Assembly: GCA_036496425.1 (NCBI GenBank)
Contig: DASXLG010000039.1
Location: 1-55,521, forward strand
Length of the DNA stretch: 55,521 bases
Reading direction: 5' to 3'
Source of the DNA: Terriglobia bacterium
GTDB lineage: Bacteria > Acidobacteriota > Terriglobia > 20CM-2-55-15
This document shows, piece by piece, positions 4,110 to 47,064 of this stretch. Made by a program: the position numbers and the translations under genes. Within the stretch, counting starts at the first letter, position 1. The number at the start of each line of letters is the position of its first letter. The notes below the pieces were generated by a model, which was not told the origin of the DNA, searched no databases, and saw only the letters and a list, made by a program, of their open reading frames with translations.

Positions 4110-4133
4110 GGATTAGCCAAGAGGAGGAAACCC

Positions 4134-4217
4134 TATCTCAAATTGTATCAATTGACGTTTCTTCATTTCTTCAAGTGCAGCAATGAAGAAACGTCAATTG
4201 ATGCAATGATCCAATGT
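4134..4217. repeat. Palindromic dispersed repeat, copy 2
   Basis: Homologous to the element at 1481-1563 but inverted. A perfect 20-bp stem has arms 4148-4167 and 4182-4201 with a 14-nt loop, and it carries the same CTTCATT/AATGAAG core. It is followed by TTGATGCAATGATCCAATG (4198-4216), whose reverse complement occurs exactly at 45813-45831. It lies between the convergent tannase and dehydrogenase genes, so it may also end transcription from both sides. Confidence 0.85.
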
Positions 4218-4232
4218 TGTTAGTTGCCTGGC

Positions 4233-5102
4233 CTACTCCACTCCGTACTCGTACACCCCTTTACCGACTTTTTTGCCGAGCCGCCCGGCCTTGACGTATT
4301 TCACCAGCAACGGACAGGGACGATACTTTTCGCCCAGTGTTTGATGAAGGAACGTCAGGATGTTCAAACGGGTATCGAGCCCAACGAGGTCGATCATTTC
4401 GAACGGTCCCATCGGATGATTGAGACCGAGCTTTAACGCTTTATCGATGTCTCTGGCGCTGGCAATCCCTTCCTGCAACATGTAGAACGCTTCATTCCCG
4501 ATCAGGGCGTTTACACGCGAGGTGACGAATCCGGGCGACTCCTGGACCTCCACCGTTTCCTTACCCATCTGTTTTGAGACGGTCTCGGCGATTTGAAATG
4601 TGCCGTCGCCCGTCTCCAGACCCCGGATGATCTCCACCAGTTTCATTTTGTGAACCGGATTGAAAAAGTGCATCCCGATAAAGCGTTGCGGCCTTTTCGT
4701 CGCCGACGCCATTTCCGTAATGCTCAGCGCAGAGGTATTTGACGCGAAAATCGTATGGTCCGGACAGGTCCGATCGAGACGCCCGAACAGGTCCAGCTTG
4801 AGGTCTATCTTTTCCGGCGCGGCTTCAATCACAAGATCCGCTTCACTCGTGGCGCGTCCCATCTCCCGTTGCAGCTTCAGCCGGCCGAGCGCAGCGCCAG
4901 CATCCGCCGCGGCTACTTTCCCAATCTCCACGCCTTTCTCGAGATCGATTTGAATCCTGGCGTGGGCCCGTTGGAGAAGTTCGTCGGATACATCGTTGAG
5001 GGTTGTCTGAAATCCTCCAACAGCCGCCACATGCGCAATCCCCCGCCCCATAATCCCGGCGCCGACGACGGTGATGTTTCGGATCTCCTTCAGTTCCGTC
5101 AT
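4233..5102 (-). CDS. 3-hydroxyacyl-CoA (3-hydroxybutyryl-CoA) dehydrogenase
   Basis: NAD-dependent L-3-hydroxyacyl-CoA dehydrogenase of 289 residues, the usual length of stand-alone Hbd/PaaH-type enzymes. It has the Rossmann motif VVGAGIMGRGIA, the catalytic-region serine in SNTSALSI, the catalytic histidine in GMHFFNPVHKM, and the NHPMGPFEMIDLVGLD motif of the C-terminal domain. It would oxidise 3-hydroxyacyl-CoA to 3-oxoacyl-CoA in the cytoplasm. The start overlaps the fdhD stop (ATGA), so it is translationally coupled as the last gene of a long minus-strand operon. A hydratase partner is encoded separately at 22848-23615. Confidence 0.93.
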   Translation of the reverse strand: MTELKEIRNITVVGAGIMGRGIAHVAAVGGFQTTLNDVSDELLQRAHARIQIDLEKGVEIGKVAAADAGAALGRLKLQREMGRATSEADLVIEAAPEKIDLKLDLFGRLDRTCPDHTIFASNTSALSITEMASATKRPQRFIGMHFFNPVHKMKLVEIIRGLETGDGTFQIAETVSKQMGKETVEVQESPGFVTSRVNALIGNEAFYMLQEGIASARDIDKALKLGLNHPMGPFEMIDLVGLDTRLNILTFLHQTLGEKYRPCPLLVKYVKAGRLGKKVGKGVYEYGVE

Positions 5103-12611: not shown

Positions 12612-13094
12612 ATGTCGAAAACAGCCAGCGGCGATCTCAAGGCAGGCCAGAAAGCTCCGGATTTTACAGCACTGAATGACAAAGGGGAGAAGGTCAAACT
12701 GTCGGATTTAAAGGGCAAGAAAGTCGTCCTCTATTTCTACCCAAAGGACGATACGCCCGGGTGCACCAAAGAAGCCTGCGCCTTCCGGGACGGCATCGAC
12801 GAGATCAAATCGCACGGGGCTGTCGTGCTGGGTGTGAGCGCGGACTCGGTCGACTCGCACAAGAAATTCAAAAGCAAGTTCGACCTGAATTTCCCGTTAC
12901 TGGCGGATGACGACAAGAAAATGGTCGAAGCCTATGGCGTCTGGAAAGAAAAGTCGATGTATGGGAAGAAATATATGGGCATCGAGCGGACCACCTTCAT
13001 CATCGATGAGAACAGCAAGATCGCGCATATTTTCCCCAAAGTAAAGGTCGACCAGCACTACGACGAGGTGCTCGCAGCGCTGGAAAACAAATAG
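12612..13094 (+). CDS. bcp: Thioredoxin-dependent peroxiredoxin Bcp/PrxQ
   Basis: Atypical two-cysteine peroxiredoxin of 160 residues that reduces hydrogen peroxide and alkyl hydroperoxides using thioredoxin. The peroxidatic Cys51 lies in [18 protein letters not shown], with the second cysteine at position 56, the PrxQ spacing. The family segments [16 protein letters not shown] and [10 protein letters not shown] are present. AAGGAGA lies at a good distance before the ATG. The gene stands alone and is followed by a strong bidirectional hairpin. Confidence 0.95.
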
Positions 13095-13112
13095 CCACAG
13101 AAGCGGCAGCAA

Positions 13113-13168
13113 GCCGCAGATGACGCAGATTTCGCCGAAACATCGGCGTCGTCCGCGTCATCTGCGGC
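13113..13168. terminator. Bidirectional hairpin between bcp and the fibronectin-III gene
   Basis: Two nested stems. The outer arms GCCGCAGATGACGC (13113-13126) and GCGTCATCTGCGGC (13155-13168) are perfectly complementary; the inner arms CGCCGA (13133-13138) and TCGGCG (13143-13148) close on AACA. It lies between convergent stops. No long T-run follows, so it may act as a processing or roadblock structure rather than a classical intrinsic terminator. Confidence 0.65.
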
Positions 13169-13183
13169 CAGGGTCAAACGGAT

Positions 13184-13825
13184 CTAGATCGCGATCCGCG
13201 TGACGGATTCACTCCAGTCGGTATAACCGGCCTTCGTGACGGCACGGGCCTGAAAAGCGTAGGCCGTGCCCGGCGTCAACCCGCTGACCAGCGCCGGCGG
13301 ACGTATCGTACCCACCGGCTGTTCGATCCAGGTGCCGGGCATTCCGCCCGGAGCGGCCGGCGCCCGGCGCAATACATAACTGAGCGCGTTCGCCTGGACC
13401 ATGAGCGTTACCAGCATCTGGCCGCTGTTGGCGCCCGGAACGATCTTCCGGAACGAACCGGACAACGGCGTAGCCGGAACCCGCGTCGAAGAGACCGCGT
13501 TGTATCCGCTCTTCAGAAAAATCGTCATGTCGTCTTTGCAGTTCTCCTCGACGTAGTGTCCGATTTGACGCAACGACTTGCTGACAACTTCCCTTTGATG
13601 TTCCCGTTCGGCAATGGCTTTCCTGCCGCCGTCCAACGCCGCTGAAATGCCGGCCGACAGTGCGTCGGCTTGCGATTTCAGGGTCGCCTGATCGATGGGC
13701 GGATTCGGGTAGTCGCCCTTATCCGTGAATACCCCACCGAGGACCGCGTTTACACGCGCCAGGACATCCTGGGCTGAGGTTTGCTTGAAACCCAGCGAGG
13801 CTTTGATCGGTATTGTCTGTGTCAT
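13184..13825 (-). CDS. Fibronectin type III domain protein, function unknown
   Basis: Protein of 213 residues with a strong AAAGGAGG site before the ATG. Residues 1-110 are mostly helical, with the stretch AISAALDGGRKAIAEREHQR and no signal peptide. Residues 115-213 look like one fibronectin type III fold, seen in SGLTPGTAYAFQARAVTKAG and the closing WSESVTRIAI. Such two-part proteins are known as uncharacterised fibronectin-III proteins. The role could be a surface or phage-like baseplate component, but no neighbour supports either. It is a single-gene unit; the twin palindromes at 13978-14016 lie about 150 bp upstream. Confidence 0.75.
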   Translation of the reverse strand: MTQTIPIKASLGFKQTSAQDVLARVNAVLGGVFTDKGDYPNPPIDQATLKSQADALSAGISAALDGGRKAIAEREHQREVVSKSLRQIGHYVEENCKDDMTIFLKSGYNAVSSTRVPATPLSGSFRKIVPGANSGQMLVTLMVQANALSYVLRRAPAAPGGMPGTWIEQPVGTIRPPALVSGLTPGTAYAFQARAVTKAGYTDWSESVTRIAI

Positions 13826-13977
13826 GGCTTCCTCCTTTCTGCGGGCCGCAGCCCGCGATTAAACTCCGTAACGAACGCGGTCCTATATCGCACGGGCGGT
13901 GCCATTCGATGGTTCGGACGCCATTCCTTACAAATCAACAATTTGCGAATTCGAGCGACGGGGTGGACGATGAAAAA

Positions 13978-14016
13978 CGCAACCTATAGGTTGCGGTGCG
14001 CAACTTACAGGTTGCG
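13978..14016. promoter_or_regulatory. Twin 18-bp operator-like palindromes
   Basis: CGCAACCTATAGGTTGCG (13978-13995) is a perfect 18-bp palindrome. A second copy, CGCAACTTACAGGTTGCG (13999-14016), follows with a start-to-start spacing of 21 bp, two helical turns. This looks like a tandem operator for a dimeric regulator. It lies upstream of the fibronectin-III gene. No regulator gene is adjacent; an ArsR- or PadR-type protein is only a guess. Confidence 0.5.
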
Positions 14017-14070
14017 GACGTCTCATCTGCGCGGGAGATTTCGCTGCTACGCAACAAATGCGGGACTAAC

Positions 14071-14450
14071 ACTGCTAAACGGTTTGCAACACTGCAATCG
14101 CCGAAGCAGCATTGCTGACTCATTTCCAGGCCTGCAATCGAAAGAGCAACGCTGCTCATCCAACTCCAAGGCTGGAATCCAAACAGCAGTACTGCTAATC
14201 CGGCTCCAAGGCTGGAACCGAAACAACAGCACTGCTAATTCAACTCCAAGGCTGGAGTCGAAACAGTAGTGCTACTAAATCGGCTGCAAGGCTGGAGCGG
14301 CAACACCAACACCGCTAATCCGGCTGCAACGCTGGAGCCCAAACAGGAGCGCTGCTAATCCGATTGCGACCCTGGAACCCAGTCAGCAGCACTGCTAAAT
14401 GAACTCCAGAATTGGAATCGCGAGAGCAGCACTGCTGATTATTCAGCGTG
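14071..14450. repeat. 40-bp tandem repeat array with two dyads per unit
   Basis: Nine full units and part of a tenth with an exact 40-bp period (units at 14071, 14111, 14151, 14191, 14231, 14271, 14311, 14351, 14391; partial at 14431). The consensus has an AGCAGCACTGCT dyad at the unit boundary and a CTCCAAGGCTGGAG-type dyad in the middle. Units differ by many substitutions yet never by length. One boundary reads AGTAGTGCTACT, where both stem arms change together. No long open frame in it looks coding. It occupies the gene-free stretch 13826-14547. Confidence 0.85.
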
Positions 14451-14547
14451 CATCCCGCTCAAACCCAATAGTCGAATACGATAACGGCGCCGGGCTCAGC
14501 TCAGCAGAGCCGTTTCCCTGGGCTATACCGGCGGGAACCGGCGTTTC

Positions 14548-14934
14548 TTAAGGGCGGGTGAAGATGGACTTGTACTTGTCCCAGTAGGCGTATCCCAGGT
14601 ATGCCGTCATTACAAAAACGATTCCACCGATCCACAGGAATGAAGGGATCAAACGCGCGTTAACAATAACGATCCCGATCACGTCCGGAGCAAGGAACAA
14701 TGTCGCCAATGCAGGGAAAATACCGAACAGAAGCATGAAGCCGGCAACGATCTCCGTCACCTTGACCATCTGAAAAATGCCGGCCTGCCAGAACAGCTGT
14801 GTGAACGCTACCATTTGCGGCGGCACGCCTTGCGTCGAATTGCCCATCAACAGCCCGCTGACGCCGCTGGCCAGCATGACGAAACCCAGCAGCGTTCGAA
14901 TTGTTGTGACCAGATAACGGTGGCGTAAGCTCAT
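14548..14934 (-). CDS. DoxX-like small membrane protein
   Basis: Protein of 128 residues with four hydrophobic segments (about 12-30, 46-66, 72-92 and 97-115), the size and topology of DoxX/DoxD-like proteins. The segments TIRTLLGFVMLASGVSGL and VKVTEIVAGFMLLFGIFPALA are typical. The function of most DoxX-like proteins is unknown. It is monocistronic, divergent from the carboxypeptidase-like gene across an AT-rich 226-bp region that should hold both promoters. Confidence 0.75.
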   Translation of the reverse strand: MSLRHRYLVTTIRTLLGFVMLASGVSGLLMGNSTQGVPPQMVAFTQLFWQAGIFQMVKVTEIVAGFMLLFGIFPALATLFLAPDVIGIVIVNARLIPSFLWIGGIVFVMTAYLGYAYWDKYKSIFTRP

Positions 14935-15160
14935 GACTCTAAGACTCTACTTCAAAATTAATCTAATTTACCGAAATCACATAAACGAAACCGTGAATAA
15001 TCCTGAATTGCTTGCGGCAGCGATCATGGCAAGTGGCCCACGCGCCATGGGCGAAAAACTCTTGTGTACAGCATTTATCAGACTTATAAGTCGTAGAGAT
15101 TCGTGTTCACAAACATCAATATGCGGTGATGTAGCAGATACGGTGACGGAGGTGAGCCGG

Positions 15161-16009
15161 ATGAGCTTCTGGACATGTGTCATAGCTGTTATGAATTGCA
15201 TTCAGTTGCAGTCAGCATATGCAGAGCCGCAAGCACCCCCGGCACGCCTCCAAGGTACAGTCGTCGATGCCGTTACAGATCAGCCGCTACAGAACCTTAA
15301 TATTCGCCTGCGGGGCACGTTCCTTGAAGCGGTGACTGACTTCGACGGCCGGTTCGTTTTAGGAGGCATTCCTCCCGGCAGCTACATTCTCACCACCGAG
15401 CGCGCGGGATATATGCAGGTCAGAGCCGCCGGCCGTAAATTGCCCGAACGCACCGGGCTACCTCTCATTTTGGAAGATGGTGAATTGCGGCGCGAATCGA
15501 TTCGCCTGTATCCCGCAGCAATCGTATCCGGCCGAATTTTCGATGACATGGGGAGTCCGATTCCAAACGCAGTCGTCGTTCCGTTTCGGCGGAGTTTTGA
15601 TGAAGACGGTCGTCCGGCATTAAAATTCTTGGCCGCCGGAAAACCCGACGACCTGGGCCAGTTCCGCTTCAACACAGTCGAGGCTGGAGAGTACGGTTTC
15701 CGGATCACGCCGCCGTCTTCGAGCCGGCAGGATGCACTGACTCCAAGCCTGACTTTTTCGACCATTTACTATCCAAACGAAGCAGAGCCCAAGCAGGCAG
15801 CAATTATGAGGGTCGAGGCGGGACAGCAACTCCGGCTGGACGATGCATACATTCGCACGATGCGCGGCCACGTTGTACGGTATCACGTGGTTGACGAGAC
15901 CTCGAAAGTGCTGTCCGTTCCGGCAGCCGTATCTCTTCGCCGAGTCGGCGACACGGAAATCATTCATGGCGCCGCAACAGGAGCGAGCGTGCTCGGGGAA
16001 TTCAGCTAG
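15161..16009 (+). CDS. CarboxypepD-regulatory-like exported protein, probably truncated
   Basis: Protein of 282 residues with a signal peptide (cleavage likely after AYA near residue 20) and a carboxypeptidase regulatory-like beta-sandwich beginning LQGTVVDAVTDQPLQN and continuing FDGRFVLGGIPPGSYILTTERAGY. A second, similar region (ASGRIFDDMGSPIPNAVVV in approximate terms, from about residue 125) follows. GGAGG at 15148-15152 supports ATG 15161. Acidobacterial relatives continue through a third sandwich, but here the frame stops at GEFS, where a strand followed by a PGxY motif is expected. The duplicated GGAATTCAG around the stop suggests a truncating rearrangement. Confidence 0.7.
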   Translation: MSFWTCVIAVMNCIQLQSAYAEPQAPPARLQGTVVDAVTDQPLQNLNIRLRGTFLEAVTDFDGRFVLGGIPPGSYILTTERAGYMQVRAAGRKLPERTGLPLILEDGELRRESIRLYPAAIVSGRIFDDMGSPIPNAVVVPFRRSFDEDGRPALKFLAAGKPDDLGQFRFNTVEAGEYGFRITPPSSSRQDALTPSLTFSTIYYPNEAEPKQAAIMRVEAGQQLRLDDAYIRTMRGHVVRYHVVDETSKVLSVPAAVSLRRVGDTEIIHGAATGASVLGEFS

Positions 16010-16048
16010 GAATTGGTAGGAATTCAGACTCTGGAGGTTCTATTCACA

Positions 16049-16171
16049 ATGCCGCAATTGAATCACATTTGTTTCGCGCCGCCGTCAGAAGCCATCCGGA
16101 ATGTAAGAATTTTAAGGCAGGTGGCGCGGACGGAATGGGGCGGAAAAGTCCAAGCCGCAGCCGCGGATTGA
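16049..16171 (+). CDS. Possible 40-codon small ORF
   Basis: A short frame of 40 residues that starts with an ATG 11 bases after GGAGG and is rich in Arg and Ala at the end. I recognise no family. It lies just after the truncated carboxypeptidase-like gene and may be a remnant rather than a gene. Confidence 0.2.
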   Translation: MPQLNHICFAPPSEAIRNVRILRQVARTEWGGKVQAAAAD

Positions 16172-16194
16172 TCCGTACACGATAAGATACGTTT

Positions 16195-16899
16195 ATGCTC
16201 TTCATTCTTTTCCGCGCCGCCAATGCGGTTTTTGCGGTCGTCGTCGCGATTTTGATCTCGACCCGGTTCGGCGAATCGGCCGCCGGAAAACTTCTTACCG
16301 TCGGCATCACCACCGGCGTCGTCGCGCTCTTCGAATGGCTCCTGATCTGGCTTCCCAAACATTCCACGAGAGCCCGGCGGTTCCTGGACCCTCGTTCCCT
16401 CTTCGCCGGCGTTTGGATACAAGACGTCAAGCGTGTCCATGGCAGTGAAGGCGTAAAGCTGGAATTTCCGAATCGCTTCGCCGTATTCACTATCCGCTAT
16501 AGTTCGGAGGCCGATAACTACAAGGTTGAGGGAACCGCCTATACCCCGTCCGGCGAGGAGCACGCCCGATGGGATTCCACGGAGGTCGTTCATTTCGCAA
16601 AGGACGGGCGTTCGATGACCTATGAATGGTCCGGCTCCATCACCGACCCTGCGATCGGAGCTGAAGATCCGCTCCGCAAAGGCTTTGCCTACCTCGAACT
16701 GCCTTCCGATAAGGGAGGCCGAGGCCGCGTGGACCATGTGGCCTTGAACGTCGTTTTGATGTTCAACCTTTCTCGCGTTACATCGGAGTGGTTGGCTGCG
16801 AATCAACTGAGCGAATTCAAGCCCGCGGAACTGTACAGCCCGGAAGATCGCGATCGGTTCGCAAAGGCTTTCGTAAAGAGCTTCGCAATCCAGCAGTAA
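16195..16899 (+). CDS. Membrane-anchored beta-rich protein (2TM plus beta domain), Cap15/S-2TMbeta-like architecture
   Basis: Protein of 234 residues. Two hydrophobic helices (about 2-22 and 33-53) precede a soluble, strand-rich domain that starts LFAGVWIQDV, a G-x-W entry like that of lipocalin-type barrels. Alternating strands follow, as in VEGTAYTPSGE and MTYEWSGSI, then a short helical tail ending FAKAFVKSFAIQQ. This matches the architecture of SMODS-associated 2TM beta-rich effectors (Cap15), but no sequence motif proves it and no CD-NTase lies nearby. There is no clear ribosome binding site. A protein of similar design is encoded at 17419-18129. Confidence 0.6.
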   Translation: MLFILFRAANAVFAVVVAILISTRFGESAAGKLLTVGITTGVVALFEWLLIWLPKHSTRARRFLDPRSLFAGVWIQDVKRVHGSEGVKLEFPNRFAVFTIRYSSEADNYKVEGTAYTPSGEEHARWDSTEVVHFAKDGRSMTYEWSGSITDPAIGAEDPLRKGFAYLELPSDKGGRGRVDHVALNVVLMFNLSRVTSEWLAANQLSEFKPAELYSPEDRDRFAKAFVKSFAIQQ

Positions 16900-17418
16900 G
16901 CCCGGTCCGATGACTCCGCGAAGATCTCGATGCTTCGATGCTTCATCGGCCGAAAAACTCGCGTTTCCGGTCCTGCCGTTACCCTGAACCGATCACGTCC
17001 AAGCGGCGCGGTGTCGTTATTCGACGCGCAGATGCAGGAAGGATAAGTGATGCCTGTCGAATGTCGTCCGCTGTGCAATGGAGTTGTTTCGATAGCCCAT
17101 CTACCCGCCAGCCTGCTTGTAAATTCTCCTGACTCATTCTATCGCGGCGAATGATAGGTACTCTGAGCGGGGTCGCCGTCGTTCCGGCAGAGCGTTTTCC
17201 GCGTAGAAGAGCCATTATGTAAACATAGCCCCCCGCGGCCAGAAAGCCGAAAAGTCACGCGAAACTCGAAATTGCCGCGAGGCCAGGTCACATTTCCATT
17301 CAATAGATTCAGAGCGGGGCGGCTAGGTACCACAGCTATAGATTCTTCGGTTCGCTACGTCGCATCTCCAGTTCCAGTTGGAGGACTGTGAAAGGAGTCA
17401 TAAGTCACAGCTTGTATA
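16900..17418. other. Gene-poor interval between the two beta-rich membrane proteins
   Basis: About 520 bp with no convincing gene. It holds a weak minus-strand small frame (16979-17137) and, near 17380-17405, an A/G-rich segment AAAGGAGTCATAAG about 20 bases before the next start. I see no clear terminator. Confidence 0.5.
16979..17137 (-). CDS. Possible small DUF3606-like ORF or remnant
   Basis: A frame of 52 codons starting MSQENLQAGW. The middle part LSKQLHCTADDIRQAS is loosely similar to the helix-turn region of DUF3606 proteins. The usual INV-E-YE motif is absent and there is no ribosome binding site, so this may be a degenerate remnant or chance. Confidence 0.2.
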   Translation of the reverse strand: MSQENLQAGWRVDGLSKQLHCTADDIRQASLILPASARRITTPRRLDVIGSG

Positions 17419-18129
17419 ATGTCGAAAGTGGCAATTTTCAACATCGCAGTTTTGCCGATTATCATCATCGTTTTCGGCGGCTTCGTGTGCTTTTTCCGCC
17501 CGCCGCGTGCGGTGAGGACCATAAGTTTCGGTGCCTTCGCTGCACTTGCGTTTGTTTACGGATACACGTATTGGACTGATCATTTCGGGCCACTGCTTCC
17601 CGTTGGACAGGATACGGTCGTATCAGAGCTTATTATTGGCGTCATCGCTGGAATTGTCAGCGCGCTATTGGTCTGGGTCTTTACAGTATTCTTTAAAGAC
17701 AGCCTTTTGCCACGGTTTGAACAGCTTGTCTACCGTGGAATCGATATCAGCGGCGAGTGGTTCCTACAACCTGATACGAGACGTGACTCGAAATATGGGG
17801 AACTGGCGCAAAGTCAGGATCTACGGATCGATCAGCACGGGCACAAGTTGAGTGGCACCGCCCACCTGAGTCCAATGAGTGGAAATAAGCTTGAGCCACG
17901 CACTCTCGATCTGACAGCCGAGATTGCCGACCGCCTGGTGTCGGGCACGCTTCATTACAAGGATCATTCTCGAATCGGTCTGATCGCATTCCTCGGTCAG
18001 GTCGAGGGCGATGGCCGAAAAATCAGCGGTCAAATGGTCTTTTTCGATATCGCAGACAGCGAGATAACGGCGGACCCATTCGTTTGGGTAAAGCGATCCG
18101 ACAAAAACTACGGTCTTATAGCTGAATAA
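17419..18129 (+). CDS. Membrane-anchored beta-rich protein (3TM plus lipocalin-like domain)
   Basis: Protein of 236 residues. Three hydrophobic helices (about 5-27, 31-50 and 68-92) precede a soluble domain entered by VYRGIDISGEWFLQ. That domain is built of alternating strands such as LRIDQHGHKLSGTAHL, RLVSGTLHY and GRKISGQMVFFD, the pattern of a small up-and-down barrel. The design resembles Cap15-type effectors (membrane helices plus beta barrel with a GxW entry) and the neighbour at 16195-16899. No nucleotidyltransferase partner is visible. TATAAT overlaps the start codon region, so start and promoter are not well resolved. Confidence 0.6.
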   Translation: MSKVAIFNIAVLPIIIIVFGGFVCFFRPPRAVRTISFGAFAALAFVYGYTYWTDHFGPLLPVGQDTVVSELIIGVIAGIVSALLVWVFTVFFKDSLLPRFEQLVYRGIDISGEWFLQPDTRRDSKYGELAQSQDLRIDQHGHKLSGTAHLSPMSGNKLEPRTLDLTAEIADRLVSGTLHYKDHSRIGLIAFLGQVEGDGRKISGQMVFFDIADSEITADPFVWVKRSDKNYGLIAE

Positions 18130-18304
18130 AACGGATCGCCCAGATTGTCACCATCGTCGAAGTGGCGGCAGGACTTGTTCTCAAGGTGGGATATGCGATT
18201 GGATCTCATCACTACATTTCGATTTCCGTCAAATTCAAGATACTCCGTCGGACAAGGATCCCCGTGCCACGGGCAAAGGAGTTGCATTCTATTACCCAAA
18301 CGTT

Positions 18305-18367
18305 TTGTGGCTCACCGATGAGCGCTAATTCATTTGTAGCTCATTTTTTGGCTTTTGTGAGCCACAA
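18305..18367 (+). terminator. Hairpin with T-run downstream of the beta-rich protein gene
   Basis: Outer arms TTGTGGCTCAC (18305-18315) and GTGAGCCACAA (18357-18367) pair exactly. An inner ATGAGC (18318-18323) / GCTCAT (18339-18344) is followed by TTTTT. It lies 175 bp after the stop and may end that transcript. Confidence 0.45.
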
Positions 18368-18384
18368 CGCTGACATGCTTGACG

Positions 18385-18417
18385 CGGATTAATTTGCCAA
18401 TTCCGCCAATTAATCCG
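18385..18417. repeat. Degenerate inverted repeat of the CCAATTAAT family
   Basis: CGGATTAATT (18385-18394) pairs with AATTAATCCG (18408-18417). The core GCCAATTAAT is shared with the perfect palindrome at 47001-47064, so this may be a decayed relative. Confidence 0.45.
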
Positions 18418-18471
18418 TGGAATCAGCGGAATTTGCGGCTGTTTCCCGCGTTCGGCTGGGGAGTGCCGATC

Positions 18472-18979
18472 ATGAGACCAATTCAGGAGCAGAATTCACA
18501 CGTTCAGCGGGCCTGGAACGCCAATGCGGAGTTCTGGGATGGCTGAAGGAAACGACTTTCTCAATCTGCTGGTGTGGCCGGCTGTAGAAAGGTTGTTGCG
18601 GCCGCGGTCGGGCGAACGCCTGCTGGGTGTGGCATGCGGAAACGGAGTGACCTCACGGCGGCTGGCAAACGCCGGCGCGAGCAATCACTGCTTTTGATTT
18701 CTCAGAAGCGCTGATTCAACTCGCGAAGAAGCGGGGCTGCCAGACCATATCGACTATCGCGTCATCGACGCGACAAATCGCGCAGAGTTGCTTGGACTCG
18801 GAGCTGCTTCTTCGTTCGACGCGGTGCTTTGCAACATGGCGCTCATGGACATGGCGGACATCGATCCGCTGATGAATGCTCTACCCTCACTCCTTCGAAC
18901 CAACGGATCGCTCCAGTCGGTGAAGAATGATAGGTATTCCGCGCTGAAAAAAGATCTCAGGTTGATGCCTTACCCATAA
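18472..18979 (+). pseudogene. Class I SAM-dependent methyltransferase, multiply frameshifted and truncated
   Basis: The methyltransferase can be followed only by changing frame. From ATG 18472, after GGGGAG, the frame reads to VQRAWNANAEFWD and stops. A second frame gives GNDFLNLLVWPAVERLL and the SAM motif GERLLGVACGNGVTSRRLA, then stops near 18690. A third gives AFDFSEALIQLAKKR. A fourth, from about 18738, gives HIDYRVIDATNRAELL and FDAVLCNMALMDMADIDPLM, and diverges after LRTNGSLQSV. Three or more frameshifts and a lost C-terminus make function unlikely. Confidence 0.85.
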
Positions 18980-18998
18980 GCAGCAATAACTGGGTGAT

Positions 18999-19339
18999 AT
19001 GACTACCCAAGACCGAGACCGCTTAACTCTTCTCCAGGGACTCTCGATCTTTTAATACTCCGCACGCTGGTCCTCGGCCCTCAGCATGGCCAAGGTGTCG
19101 CGCGGGCGATTCAGGAGAACTCCGACAATGAATTACTGGTGGAACATGGAGCGCTCTATCCCGCACTGCAACGCCTTGAAGAACGGAAATGGATTGCGGC
19201 GGAGTGGGGAGTCTCAACCGGCGCGGCCCACTTTTACAAATTGACCAAAACCGGCCGCCATCATCTCGCCGAGGAGACTTCGCGCTGGAGACGGTTATCG
19301 TTGGCCATCGGCCGCATTCTTGGACCTGAGAAGGCGTGA
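18999..19339 (+). pseudogene. PadR family transcriptional regulator with a one-base frameshift
   Basis: The N-terminus MTTQDRDRLTLLQG is encoded from ATG 18999. The rest, TLDLLILRTLVLGPQHGQGV through the wing (LYPALQRLEERKWI, FYKLTKTGRHHL) to EKA, lies in another frame. Removing the shift near 19039 restores a full PadR of about 114 residues, so one base is missing. In Acidobacteriota such PadR genes usually precede ADOP/MacB-like permease genes, and a fragment of one follows. Confidence 0.8.
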
Positions 19340-19346
19340 GGCTCTG

Positions 19347-19529
19347 ATGTTCGAAAAGCGGGATCCTGACGACTTTAATTTGAAAAGAAAGAAGGGGCCA
19401 ATCACTTTGTCGTCTCGCGACAATTTTGGACGCTTCGCCTTCAGACGAAGGAAGGTTATTACGCATATTGACGCCGGTGTGCCATCCCGGATCTCCAATT
19501 TCCAACCTCCAATTTCGAATTTCCAATAG
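19347..19529 (+). pseudogene. Truncated start of an ADOP/MacB-like permease
   Basis: The frame opens MFEKRDPDDFN, like the start of PadR-linked permeases (a basic tract followed by DDF), then loses similarity. It ends in short direct repeats of the type CCAATTTCCAA around 19495-19530. Only the context and about ten residues support the identification. Confidence 0.35.
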
Positions 19530-19641
19530 CCAGGAAAGTCGTAGATCCGTCACATCACTGTCACTCTTCTGTTACACACACTTGTTATTCAACGGAGGCG
19601 GGGTTTTTCAGACTCCGCTAATCTAAAAATCAGGAGTTTCA

Positions 19642-21447
19642 ATGGTGCAAAACCGATTCTACATACGCTTGTGTGCGTTGTTCCTCGTTGGAACGTTGGG
19701 CAGCCTGAAGGCTTCCGCCTCCGATATCAAGAAGGTCTTCGTGATTGCCCTGGAGAATCACAACTGGACGCAGCCGGTCAGCAACCCCGGCGGGATCCAG
19801 CCGGTCTTTAACAATCCCATCAACGCGCCGTTCATCTACAGTCTCGTGAATGGGACGGCCACAGCGGTGATTAATGGCGCAACCGTTAACATCAGCCAGC
19901 AGACCTCCTATGCCAAGGCCTACTACAACGCCCTGGCCACTCCAACCGGAAACAATCCTTCGATTCATCCATCGGAGCCCAACTATCTGTGGGCCGAAGC
20001 CGGCACCAACTTCGGCGTTCTTAACGATAACGATCCCTTCGCGAGCAGTGGCGGGACGAATCAGAATACGGTACGGCACTTGAGCGGTTTTCTACAGGTC
20101 GCCGGCAGGACATGGAGATCGTACCAGGAAGACGCGGACCTGCTTACGACCGGCATGACGAATATGCCCGGGATGCTCACCAACACCCCTCTGCCCCGGG
20201 CAAGTTGGACCGTTCCTGCGACCAGCTTCTCCGGAAATTTTGTTTCTGGCTTCAATGCTTATAACGGATCAAGCCAGTACAACTATGCGACCAAACACAA
20301 TCCCATGGCCTACTTCACAGATACGAACGGCGGCCCCAATTTTGGTCCCAGCAACCCGCTGTCCCAGAGCCACGCGCCTTTGCAACAGTTGCAGTTCGAT
20401 CTTGCCAGTAATACGGTGGCCGACTACAACTGGATTACGCCGAACCAGTACAACGACATGCACACGGCGCTCAGCGCCAGCGCACCCATTAAGGGCACGG
20501 AAGTGATTGCAGGGTTCACCGGCGACGGGCTCCAGATCAAGCAGGGCGACGACTTCCTGAAACAGTTGGTTCCCATGATCATGGCATCACAGGCATACAG
20601 GGATCACGGCGTGATTATTATCTGGACGGACGAAACCGAACCCGCAGGCGCAGGCGACACACCGTCCCAGAACGACTTCCAGCACACGCTGGCCGAGATC
20701 GTCATCTCCGCGGACGCTCATGCCAACGTGAACGGCCTCCCCTACGGAAGCCCGGTGGTTTACACGCATTCTTCGGACTTGCTCACCATGCAGGAAATCT
20801 TCGGTGTGGGACCGGCTATCGGCGATGCAGCGAACGCCACCGATCTGTCAGACCTGTTCAATCCGGGCGTCATCTCGGATGACAACGTCAACGTCAAGGG
20901 AAACCTCACTATTTCTGCGGGTCAGTCCATAACCCTCAGTCAAGGCGCGGTCGTGAACGGCAACGTCATGGTGAACGGCGGCACGTTATTCCTGACCAAC
21001 GGCTCGCGTATCGGCGGCAACCTGCAGGTTTCGAGCGGCGATGTTACGGTCACGAACAGCACGGTTGGCGGAAACGCGCAATTCAACGGCGGCTCCTTCT
21101 CGATCGGATCCGGCACCGTCATCCAGGGCAACCTCCAGGCTAATGGCCTGCCGGGTGGCAGCGCAATCCTCAATCTGGTGTGCGGCGCCTCGATCGGCGG
21201 CAACCTGCAGTATCAGAACAACGCCGGCGCGGCCGTGATTGGCGGCCCGACAGTGCTTGCCACGAGTACTTTCGCGAGTTGCCCCGGAAACGTCGTCAAT
21301 GGAAATATGCAGGTCGACAACAACTCCAGCCAGATTCAGGTGTACAACAACAAAGTGAAGAACAACCTGCAATGCCAGCAGAATTCCTCCATCCAAGGCG
21401 GAGGTGATACAGCCAGGAACCAACAGGGGCAGTGCTCGGCGTTCTGA
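19642..21447 (+). CDS. Secreted phosphoesterase (PF04185) with beta-helix C-terminal tail
   Basis: Exported protein of 601 residues with a signal peptide cleaved after KASA near residue 27. The catalytic part (about 30-410) belongs to the phosphoesterase/phospholipase C-acid phosphatase family, with the metal-site motif VIALENHNW and the later IIIWTDETEP; it would hydrolyse phosphate esters outside the cytoplasm. Residues 415-600 are repeats around GGNLQVSSG, GNVMVNGG and GGNAQFNGG, a right-handed beta-helix of the bactofilin/polymer-forming type. AGGAG precedes the ATG. The tail may anchor or multimerise the enzyme; this is inference. Confidence 0.85.
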   Translation: MVQNRFYIRLCALFLVGTLGSLKASASDIKKVFVIALENHNWTQPVSNPGGIQPVFNNPINAPFIYSLVNGTATAVINGATVNISQQTSYAKAYYNALATPTGNNPSIHPSEPNYLWAEAGTNFGVLNDNDPFASSGGTNQNTVRHLSGFLQVAGRTWRSYQEDADLLTTGMTNMPGMLTNTPLPRASWTVPATSFSGNFVSGFNAYNGSSQYNYATKHNPMAYFTDTNGGPNFGPSNPLSQSHAPLQQLQFDLASNTVADYNWITPNQYNDMHTALSASAPIKGTEVIAGFTGDGLQIKQGDDFLKQLVPMIMASQAYRDHGVIIIWTDETEPAGAGDTPSQNDFQHTLAEIVISADAHANVNGLPYGSPVVYTHSSDLLTMQEIFGVGPAIGDAANATDLSDLFNPGVISDDNVNVKGNLTISAGQSITLSQGAVVNGNVMVNGGTLFLTNGSRIGGNLQVSSGDVTVTNSTVGGNAQFNGGSFSIGSGTVIQGNLQANGLPGGSAILNLVCGASIGGNLQYQNNAGAAVIGGPTVLATSTFASCPGNVVNGNMQVDNNSSQIQVYNNKVKNNLQCQQNSSIQGGGDTARNQQGQCSAF

Positions 21448-21474
21448 TTCATTCCTCGTACTGACCTGTTCCCT

Positions 21475-21506
21475 CCGGGTCCGATGCCTTCAGGCATCGG
21501 ACCCGG
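21475..21506. terminator. Bidirectional hairpin between convergent genes
   Basis: Perfect 14-bp stem CCGGGTCCGATGCC (21475-21488) / GGCATCGGACCCGG (21493-21506) with the stable loop TTCA. It touches the stop codon of the minus-strand gene at 21507-21509. It can serve both converging transcripts; no long T-run is present. Confidence 0.7.
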
Positions 21507-22751
21507 TCAGCGTTGACGGGACGCGGGCAGCACCGTCAGTTTTCCGAATTCACCATCGGACTCGCTGTTTGGACCCGCCGTGAAGTAGAGCGAATTCGCA
21601 TCGCCGAGGCTGACGCCATTGCCGAACACCAATCCCCATATCCCGTCGATCTTGATCACATCGCCACGCTCGTCTCTCAGGTTGCCTGTGAAGTTGCCGG
21701 TTTTGGGATCGAAGGCGGCAATGGTTCCGTCACCGAAATTGGACACCAGGAGGTCACCGCCGAATTTGCCGAAGGCGGACGGCGCAATCGCCATGCCCCA
21801 AGGGGAGTTGAGCTTTCCCTGGTCTTTGAAATCCTTCACCAGAGTGCCATCCTCATTATATTCGACGACATGACCGTTGCCCGGGCCGTCCTTCTGTTCC
21901 ATCCCTTCATCTCCGTCGGGATTAAACATGGCGTAAGCCACATACAAATGGCCGGCTATGCCGGCAATGTTGTATACGTGCAGTCCGCCAACGTCTTTAG
22001 GCGTCTGGAAGTGAAAGGACGAGGTGATGTCCCGCCACTGATTATTAAATACCTGGATGGCATTATTCCGGAAATCCGTTGCGAACAGGAGGTTTCCTCC
22101 CGCACGGGTGTAGGCCGGAGTGTTGTAAACATTAACGGTCATCGCCGCGCCGCTGAAAACGCAGTTGGCCTTGTAGGGGTAGTGGCCCGTCTTGGAATAG
22201 TCGATGATCACCGGCGCGCTGGTCATAGAGACTGCGGTACTCAAGCGCCAGGCATTGATGGCGCCATCTTCCGTGACGAAAGCAAATTTAGCCGCCCCGG
22301 ATGTTCCCCCGGAAATGGGTTGGGGCGGGTTGGTGGAATAGTTGAGCGCCGGCCCGGAGACCGGGAATTCGATGGGCTGTCCCGGTATGTCGCTGGCTGC
22401 GTTATAAGCCAGGCCGGTGACGGTCGCAAATCCGTGATCGGTAAACCCAGGCGTATCGAGCGTCACGCTCTTTAAGCCATCCTGATGCAGGGGATTGCCC
22501 TCGACGTCCCCAATGTATTCCACCGAATTACCGGTTTTGGCGTTGTTGATCCAGAAATGGCCGCCCGCGCCCGGCGGACGGACGGCGATCCCCCAGGCAT
22601 TGAGCATCGTCTTGTCCACCATCTTGGGCTTAAGAGCCGGATCGTTGGCAACAAGAATGGTCTGCGCAAACCGGTTGCCCTGCGCTGACGCCGGAATCCC
22701 AATGCTCTGTGCCAGTATCGTAAAGGCAACAACCTTTATTAGCGTTTTCAT
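21507..22751 (-). CDS. TIGR03118 family exported beta-propeller-like protein
   Basis: Protein of 414 residues with a signal peptide (cleavage near IPASAQ, about residue 23). It carries the family's opening VANDPALKPKMVDKTMLNAWGIAV and GGHFWINNAKTGNSVEYIG, here cited as neighbouring segments, and later NSPWGMAIAPSAFGKFGGDLLVSNFGDG. These fit TIGR03118 proteins, thought to fold as NHL-like propellers. No enzymatic role is known. It shares a hairpin terminator with the phosphoesterase gene. Confidence 0.85.
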   Translation of the reverse strand: MKTLIKVVAFTILAQSIGIPASAQGNRFAQTILVANDPALKPKMVDKTMLNAWGIAVRPPGAGGHFWINNAKTGNSVEYIGDVEGNPLHQDGLKSVTLDTPGFTDHGFATVTGLAYNAASDIPGQPIEFPVSGPALNYSTNPPQPISGGTSGAAKFAFVTEDGAINAWRLSTAVSMTSAPVIIDYSKTGHYPYKANCVFSGAAMTVNVYNTPAYTRAGGNLLFATDFRNNAIQVFNNQWRDITSSFHFQTPKDVGGLHVYNIAGIAGHLYVAYAMFNPDGDEGMEQKDGPGNGHVVEYNEDGTLVKDFKDQGKLNSPWGMAIAPSAFGKFGGDLLVSNFGDGTIAAFDPKTGNFTGNLRDERGDVIKIDGIWGLVFGNGVSLGDANSLYFTAGPNSESDGEFGKLTVLPASRQR

Positions 22752-22847
22752 AATGTCGACCTCCGGGAAACAAATGAAAACTGCATTTTCTTAGACGCCG
22801 TATGTATTTTCTATGACAGATGAATGACTTTTCTGTGTAGGTGCGGT

Positions 22848-23615
22848 CTATTTGTTCTTCCACTGGGGAGGCCGCTTCTCAAGGAATGCCGTCATCCCCT
22901 CCGCCATATCTTCTGTCCGGATGAGGTCGCGCACATAAAGCTCGTGCGCGCGGTCCAGCGCGCTTTCGAAATGGCGGCCGGCGCCTTCGCGAAGGGCGCG
23001 TTTCGCTAAGGCAAGAGCAGCAGAGCTCTTCATGAGAAGCTTGTCGACGTAGGAGTCTATGGTTTCGGTCATCCGCTCGCGCGCGACAACCTTATTGACG
23101 AGGCCGAAACGTTCGGCGGCGGCGGCGCCGACGGGTTCGCCGAGCAGGATCATCTCCGAGGCGCGGTGGAACCCGATCGCACCCGGCAAATAGGCGACCG
23201 CAACCGGAGGATAGCAACCCAGTCCGATCTCGGGCTGGCCGATTTGCGCGTTATCCGCCGCGACAATTAGATCGCACATCATCGCCAGTTCGGCTCCGCC
23301 GCCGAGCGTGTGGCCGTGAATCGCGGCGATGCTGATGCAGTCCGATTTACGCATCCGGAGGATGAAATGGTGAAACTTCTCCAGAGCGCTTTCAATCCGG
23401 GCAGGCGCGTGATCGGCAACATCGACGCCGGCCGAGAACCCGCGATCGCCCGCCCCCGAAATAACAGCGACCTGGGCTTTCAAATCCTCGACTTCCGACC
23501 AAGCGGCGTTCAGCTCGTCCAGCATCTGAAGATTGATCACATTCAATGGAGGCCGATCGAGAACGATACTGGCAACGCGCGGCCCGGGATGAAACCGAAT
23601 CGTCGAATATTCCAT
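22848..23615 (-). CDS. Enoyl-CoA hydratase/isomerase family protein
   Basis: Crotonase-fold enzyme of 255 residues. The motif GHTLGGGAELAMMCDLIVAA gives the oxyanion hole and first catalytic glutamate; the second lies in AQIGQPEIGLG. DRPPLNVINLQMLDEL and FSAGVDVADH resemble cyclohexa-1,5-dienecarbonyl-CoA hydratases, which some relatives are named after, but substrate is unproven. It starts one base after the pseudopilin stop, so it is the last gene of the pilus/secretion operon, an unexpected partner. A terminator is not obvious after its stop. Confidence 0.87.
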   Translation of the reverse strand: MEYSTIRFHPGPRVASIVLDRPPLNVINLQMLDELNAAWSEVEDLKAQVAVISGAGDRGFSAGVDVADHAPARIESALEKFHHFILRMRKSDCISIAAIHGHTLGGGAELAMMCDLIVAADNAQIGQPEIGLGCYPPVAVAYLPGAIGFHRASEMILLGEPVGAAAAERFGLVNKVVARERMTETIDSYVDKLLMKSSAALALAKRALREGAGRHFESALDRAHELYVRDLIRTEDMAEGMTAFLEKRPPQWKNK

Positions 23616-47000: not shown

Positions 47001-47064
47001 TTTAGCCGCCAATGAGGCAAATTACGCCAATTAATTGGCGTAATTTGCCTCATTGGCGGCTAAA
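47001..47064. repeat. Perfect 64-bp palindrome
   Basis: Left arm 47001-47032 and right arm 47033-47064 are exact reverse complements with no loop; the centre is CCAATTAATTGG. It lies between the HD-GYP gene and the epimerase-like gene, and would form a 32-bp cruciform or a very strong RNA hairpin. A degenerate relative is at 18385-18417. Confidence 0.95.

Follow-up and report, generated by a model that had tools for sequence, protein, structure and literature searches.

What keeps a tandem repeat in strict register when its units have diverged widely, and to what is it tied? This question is raised by an array in the 55,521-bp stretch of acidobacterial DNA analysed here, hereafter the window. 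A first-pass annotation had described it as a 40-bp repeat with two dyads per unit. The array, its dyads and its exact period are borne out by TRF, by printing the sequence in 20-bp lines and by period scans, in which the control periods of 18, 19, 21 and 22 bp disclosed no array in the window. Its basic period, however, is 20 bp: positions 14061–14440 (no strand assigned) hold about 19 dyad units, each with a NNCANNNNTGNN-type dyad and of the general form NNCA-N4-TGNN, and degenerate units flank them at 14041–14060 and 14441–14460. The 40-bp repeat is a genuine super-period, since two 20-bp unit types, AGCA....TGCT and TCCA....TGGA, take turns; at 14141–14398, TRF reports periods of 40 and 80 bp.

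The array had also been called non-coding, and rightly so. A listed ORF (13781–14269) overlaps its first half, and no single reading frame runs through the whole, since neither 20 nor 40 bp is a multiple of three. A coding explanation was discarded because units of 20, 40 or 41 bp break the frame; some 21-bp arrays of the kind described below could in principle encode heptads. Rfam yielded no match to the window array at the gathering score, and a CRISPR-type division into constant repeats and unique spacers is not seen in it; the units are contiguous 20-bp dyads, and variation falls inside them.

With regard to its surroundings, about 240 bp separate the array from the start codon of an ORF on the reverse strand (13184–13825), the array being on the upstream side. 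The 213-aa product has a predicted helical N-terminal domain, with three predicted helices, and a C-terminal FN3-like domain, and its structural model (pLDDT 91.7) shows a helical bundle followed by FN3. For this ORF, Pfam returned only fn3 and fn3-like models, and NCBIfam nothing; within the gene family to which it belongs, Pfam fn3 matches were obtained for 45 of 54 members. Structure searches identified FN3 for the C-terminus only (Z 12.1, rmsd 2.0 over 86 residues against 1qg3_B), and the helical N-terminus had no significant PDB match. Its best hit, at Z 8.0, was an unrelated helical segment and was taken as uninformative, and a weak PADLOC match of one family member to a type II restriction enzyme (E 0.0023) was treated as chance. 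The family proteins are basic (median pI 9.5), and their genes are under purifying selection (dN/dS 0.2–0.5).

Gene, leader and array form a dispersed homologous unit, delimited by blastn at 13172–14464 on the reverse strand. The window and the copy on contig C68 share 79% identity over 1297 bp, with limits of homology shortly beyond the stop codon on one side and where the array ends on the other. Homology with the copy on C304 covers gene and leader only (13173–14016, 84% over 846 bp), and the window and C304 arrays can no longer be aligned over their full length. The leader, between gene and array, carries paired GCAACCTRTAGGTTGC-type dyads 21 bp apart (13978–14017, no strand assigned), and this dyad occupies the equivalent place in the C68, C115 and C304 copies. 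In one subfamily, GCAACCTRTAGGTTGC dyads were also noticed at L028:8988-9003, L030:8636-8651 and L031:9212-9248, with a 21-bp spacing where two occur, and several other paralogs (e.g., L066, L078 and L079) have a different 2- or 3-unit 20-bp motif near the start codon.

The central result is that such arrays are linked to genes of this family, both in the same genome and in two other classes of the phylum. The first-pass annotation had named chance-level covariation and a lack of related arrays as the outcome that would favour neutral growth of a minisatellite; related arrays do exist: five further arrays of about 380–440 bp each occur in the same genome (contigs C68, C74, C115, C304 and C343), and about 40 analogous ones lie beside paralogous genes. 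When TRF and autocorrelation were applied to the sequence preceding the gene at 63 family loci, and the whole loci were scanned, arrays whose period is a multiple of 20 or 21 bp were found in 42 of the 63, every one of them 5' of the gene, and no array of another period (15 to 63 bp scanned) or downstream of the gene was found in these loci. A plain minisatellite would show no such consistent association with a gene or a position. At z ≥ 5, upstream arrays were present in 34 of 59 paralogs and downstream arrays in 0 of 59, compared with 2 of 126 control kilobases; of these two, one holds a true orphan array. Genome-wide counts rest on sampled regions, among them contigs totalling about 353 kb, with no listed family gene, in which no such array occurred. 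The periods observed were 20, 21, 40, 41, 42, 62 and 63 bp, and the arrays, of about 15–25 dyad sites each, lie about 100–700 bp upstream of the gene. Roughly one third of the family copies have no detectable array. The units differ between copies (GAGAAGATCTTCTC-like, TCTTATAAGA-like or TCGAAGCTTCGA-like, for example), most copies having units of unrelated sequence, and no unit common to arrays of different loci was found.

This genome, which belongs to the soil Acidobacteria with relatives labelled group 5 MAGs, carries the family in about 50 scattered copies. One congener has 25 members and others fewer. Outside the genus, 55 sampled members of the same family and class gave one weak fragment match only, and across the phylum the gene family was detected in only two other genomes of 396. 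When an 11-sequence alignment was used to query a wider collection, matches came from Acidobacteria MAGs only. The linkage is repeated in those two genomes, which represent other classes: arrays accompany all four full-length genes in G310 and, in G433, two of four clearly and two weakly, with periods of 21, 42 or 63 bp. The repeat thus looks like one of dozens of arrays of about 400 bp that stand upstream of one uncharacterised gene family of soil Acidobacteria, as part of a shared gene-plus-array unit rather than as a stray minisatellite.

What persists among these arrays is geometry and dyad symmetry, while the sequence turns over. Among 28 well-defined arrays, which include a few close relatives and are thus not fully independent, 23 are more dyad-symmetric than their column-permuted versions (p ≤ 0.05; Fisher combined 2e-26), and the window array alone exceeds this null at p = 0.035. 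The permutation test was used because counts of exact dyads with 6-bp arms proved too strict; the dyad centre was chosen by maximal symmetry in the permuted arrays too, and the per-position profiles are uncorrected for this choice. A second dyad centre usually lies about half a period from the first. Divergence is faster in the arrays than in the leader, and L103 and L105 have dissimilar arrays (cosine 0.04) in spite of 70% protein identity. Because of this turnover, a search for the window array DNA in 40 relatives gave matches in its own genome only. At a syntenic locus of three species, beside a gene for a sigma-54-type regulator, the array is kept but its core has passed from CAGNNCTG to CTGNNCAG, with both arms changed.

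The covarying stem bases proposed in the first-pass annotation stand in part. Outer arm pairs do change jointly between the alternating unit types of the window family (TA vs AT), and the unit AGTAG TG CTACT at 14265–14276, singled out for changes in both arms, is a real double change but a single event. Of 21 window units, 20 have complementary outer arm pairs, against 10.2 expected after shuffling; the alternation of two unit types accounts for most of this, and a control slid by +3 is equally complementary. Within-unit covariation pooled over the 28 arrays is not above chance (2058 observed vs 2142 expected), numbers to be read with caution since three G310 arrays (L127, L129 and L131) are hard to phase and L131 has halves of opposite orientation; singly, L066 and L114 are mildly positive. 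Better evidence for selected dyads is the recurrence of dyads in arrays of unrelated sequence. This L131 array (G310 contig 80), with a 21-bp period and upstream of a family gene, reverses near its midpoint, where a half begins that is similar to the reverse complement of the preceding one.

Could such a pattern arise without function? An ancestral array might have been co-duplicated with the gene, unequal crossing-over would keep the unit length, and template switching at quasi-palindromes would keep the dyads. The very fast turnover of the arrays agrees with this, as do the absence of pooled covariation, the arrays joined to gene fragments (L068 and L119) and the orphan arrays. We nevertheless judge this scenario unlikely, because upstream arrays have been kept in separate classes, and at one orthologous locus in three species, in spite of the turnover, because only multiples of 20–21 bp occur, within narrow limits of position and length, and because the 353 kb sampled elsewhere contained none.

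Among the three options first offered, namely a structured RNA, a protein-binding array and a minisatellite, the second fits best, and the third leaves the linkage to the gene unexplained. We therefore favour, tentatively and with slightly less than even confidence, a helically phased array of putative double-stranded protein-binding sites that would act on the adjacent gene or locus. The array would be the cis-acting element of a genetic unit present in many copies, each made of one FN3-like family gene and its own upstream array. Sites 20–21 bp apart, i.e., two helical turns, would all face the same side of the DNA, and symmetric, presumably dimeric, protein units could bind them as double-stranded DNA and line this face of the helix. 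The resulting local nucleoprotein complex might control the adjacent gene or organise the locus. Since the arrays share a geometry but no motif, no single sequence-specific factor could serve all of them; each array would have its own cognate factor, or else a single factor would recognise structure or geometry rather than sequence. If sequence is read, separate readers are needed, and the linked basic paralogous protein is the natural and obvious candidate for the cognate reader. We observe the gene linkage, the array geometry, the dyads and the turnover, and infer binding, regulation and the identity of this reader. A bolder version would pair every FN3-like protein with the array that precedes its gene: the protein would recognise those dyads, and the two partners would have diverged together into dozens of mutually distinct specificities while the geometry stayed fixed. 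Such pairing would imply a DNA-binding mode new for helical-bundle/FN3 proteins, and we hold it to be rather doubtful. Several observations weigh against a phased binding array in general: the family protein has no recognised DNA-binding domain, FN3 being usually a protein-interaction fold; about one third of the copies are devoid of a detectable array; some arrays have no family gene; and common descent of all arrays could alone preserve the period.

The same dyads could alternatively act as RNA. Transcription would then take in the array, either within a long leader belonging to the gene or in the antisense direction, and the transcript would fold into a row of small hairpins controlling decay, processing or translation. 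Each strand indeed folds far better than shuffled sequences (mean z about −8), the L114 units resemble long stems when inspected by eye, and G.T mismatches slightly exceed A.C mismatches (153 vs 104, with 138 expected from composition). However, folding is equal on both strands, correction for composition leaves no significant strand asymmetry (p = 0.07 and 0.23), and compensatory changes within units were not found in the pooled arrays. Furthermore, the symmetry of L091, L122 and L082 includes the central positions, which an RNA hairpin would have to leave unpaired as its loop, the fixed spacing of 20–21 bp has no obvious reason in an RNA, and Rfam offers no match. Equal folding of the strands, the lack of a significant strand preference, symmetry through the centre and two-turn spacing favour, but do not prove, a role as double-stranded DNA, and a structured RNA seems to us improbable.

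A few arrays stand apart from an intact gene. On C74, C115 and C343, the family gene is lost or only a fragment, and a ten-unit array of 41-bp period at L028:3934-4363 (G000 contig 68, 27933–28362) has no adjoining family gene. By inspection, the latter begins just past the end of another ORF and has a 15-bp direct repeat, AAATCCTTAGTCGAG, on its flanks. Arrays with a truncated gene or none are regarded as remnants or as independent units. In two congeners (G004:C295 and G001:C652), a peroxiredoxin gene is followed within about 160–220 bp by an enoyl-CoA-hydratase-like gene, with no unit between them; in the window, where the peroxiredoxin gene is the neighbour of the gene-array unit, the same two genes lie 9.8 kb apart (13093–22855), which suggests that the stretch from 13.1 to 22.8 kb, home to that unit, is a variable island. 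Elsewhere in the window, a blastn self-match with the reverse complement disclosed a perfect 64-bp palindrome (47001–47064), and an imperfect palindromic repeat of about 100 bp, possibly a small dispersed element, is present in two copies (1482–1588 and 4111–4238) with inverted and direct matches.

These features also bear on the possibility that gene and array are mobile or gene-converting, the dyads serving as sites of recombination or transposition. It would account for some 50 dispersed copies, for the homology between the window, C68 and C304 copies, which is bounded by the stop codon and, on the other side, by the array or a point short of it, for orphan arrays, including the one between direct repeats, and for the different spacing of the peroxiredoxin gene and its neighbour here and in the two relatives. 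We consider it very unlikely all the same, since the unit holds no transposase, integrase or recombinase, its close copies are too divergent for recent movement (dS 0.2–0.4), one locus is syntenic in three species, the 9.8-kb difference is not a clean unit insertion, no clean empty site was found, and searches for the family protein in phages, plasmids and viral contigs gave nothing.

Whatever its basis, the pattern is one in which dozens of gene copies within a single genome keep the same upstream architecture, with about 20 dyads spaced by 20–21 bp, while the sequence is replaced almost at random. If these arrays are binding platforms, nature would have supplied a collection of mutually orthogonal site arrays, which may have readers to match, and with it a model for the evolution of recognition specificity; if they are neutral, they would show that no function is needed for dyads and a helical spacing to last.

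No description of such units was found in Pfam, NCBIfam, PHROGs, PADLOC, Rfam, PDB or the open-access literature searched, and the gene family, in half of which no domain is recognised, seems to be undescribed together with its arrays. The array was not assigned to iterons, the REP family, the ribbon-helix-helix (RHH) type of parS or sopC, because the defining proteins or shared motifs are missing. Plasmid iterons are direct repeats of about 20 bp, about two helical turns, beside the gene for their binder, and iteron systems comprise Rep initiator proteins and origins, whereas no Rep homolog or origin was recognised here. REP/BIME elements are palindromic repeats of 20–40 bp in many copies, with a GTAG/CGTC tag and RAYT transposases (PMC3733652). 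The present loci share no unit and no GTAG/CGTC-tagged palindrome, and the gene-array unit contains no RAYT gene; moreover, REP elements have one sequence genome-wide and lie mostly downstream of genes, in contrast to the locus-specific upstream sequences described here. The RHH-type parS of pSM19035 consists of contiguous short repeats in mixed orientation, bound by a protein that also binds the promoters of its partners (PMC9499535), but its repeats are 7-bp heptads, and no ribbon-helix-helix fold was found in the present system. The nearest architecture is that of the F plasmid, where sopC comprises twelve 43-bp repeats with inverted-repeat motifs beside the gene for a DNA-binding protein (PMC6238139). 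As in this parS/sopC–ParB/SopB system, tandem units of about 40 bp with inverted repeats adjoin a gene, so that, in architecture, a tandem array of dyads as putative binding sites is shared with ParABS centromeres. However, no ParB-type protein is encoded beside the array according to Pfam (fn3 only) and NCBIfam (nothing), nor does the unit hold a ParA/ParB homolog. The protein is instead a helical bundle with FN3, and the repeats, mostly different from one another, occur in about 50 chromosomal copies with the array upstream of the gene.
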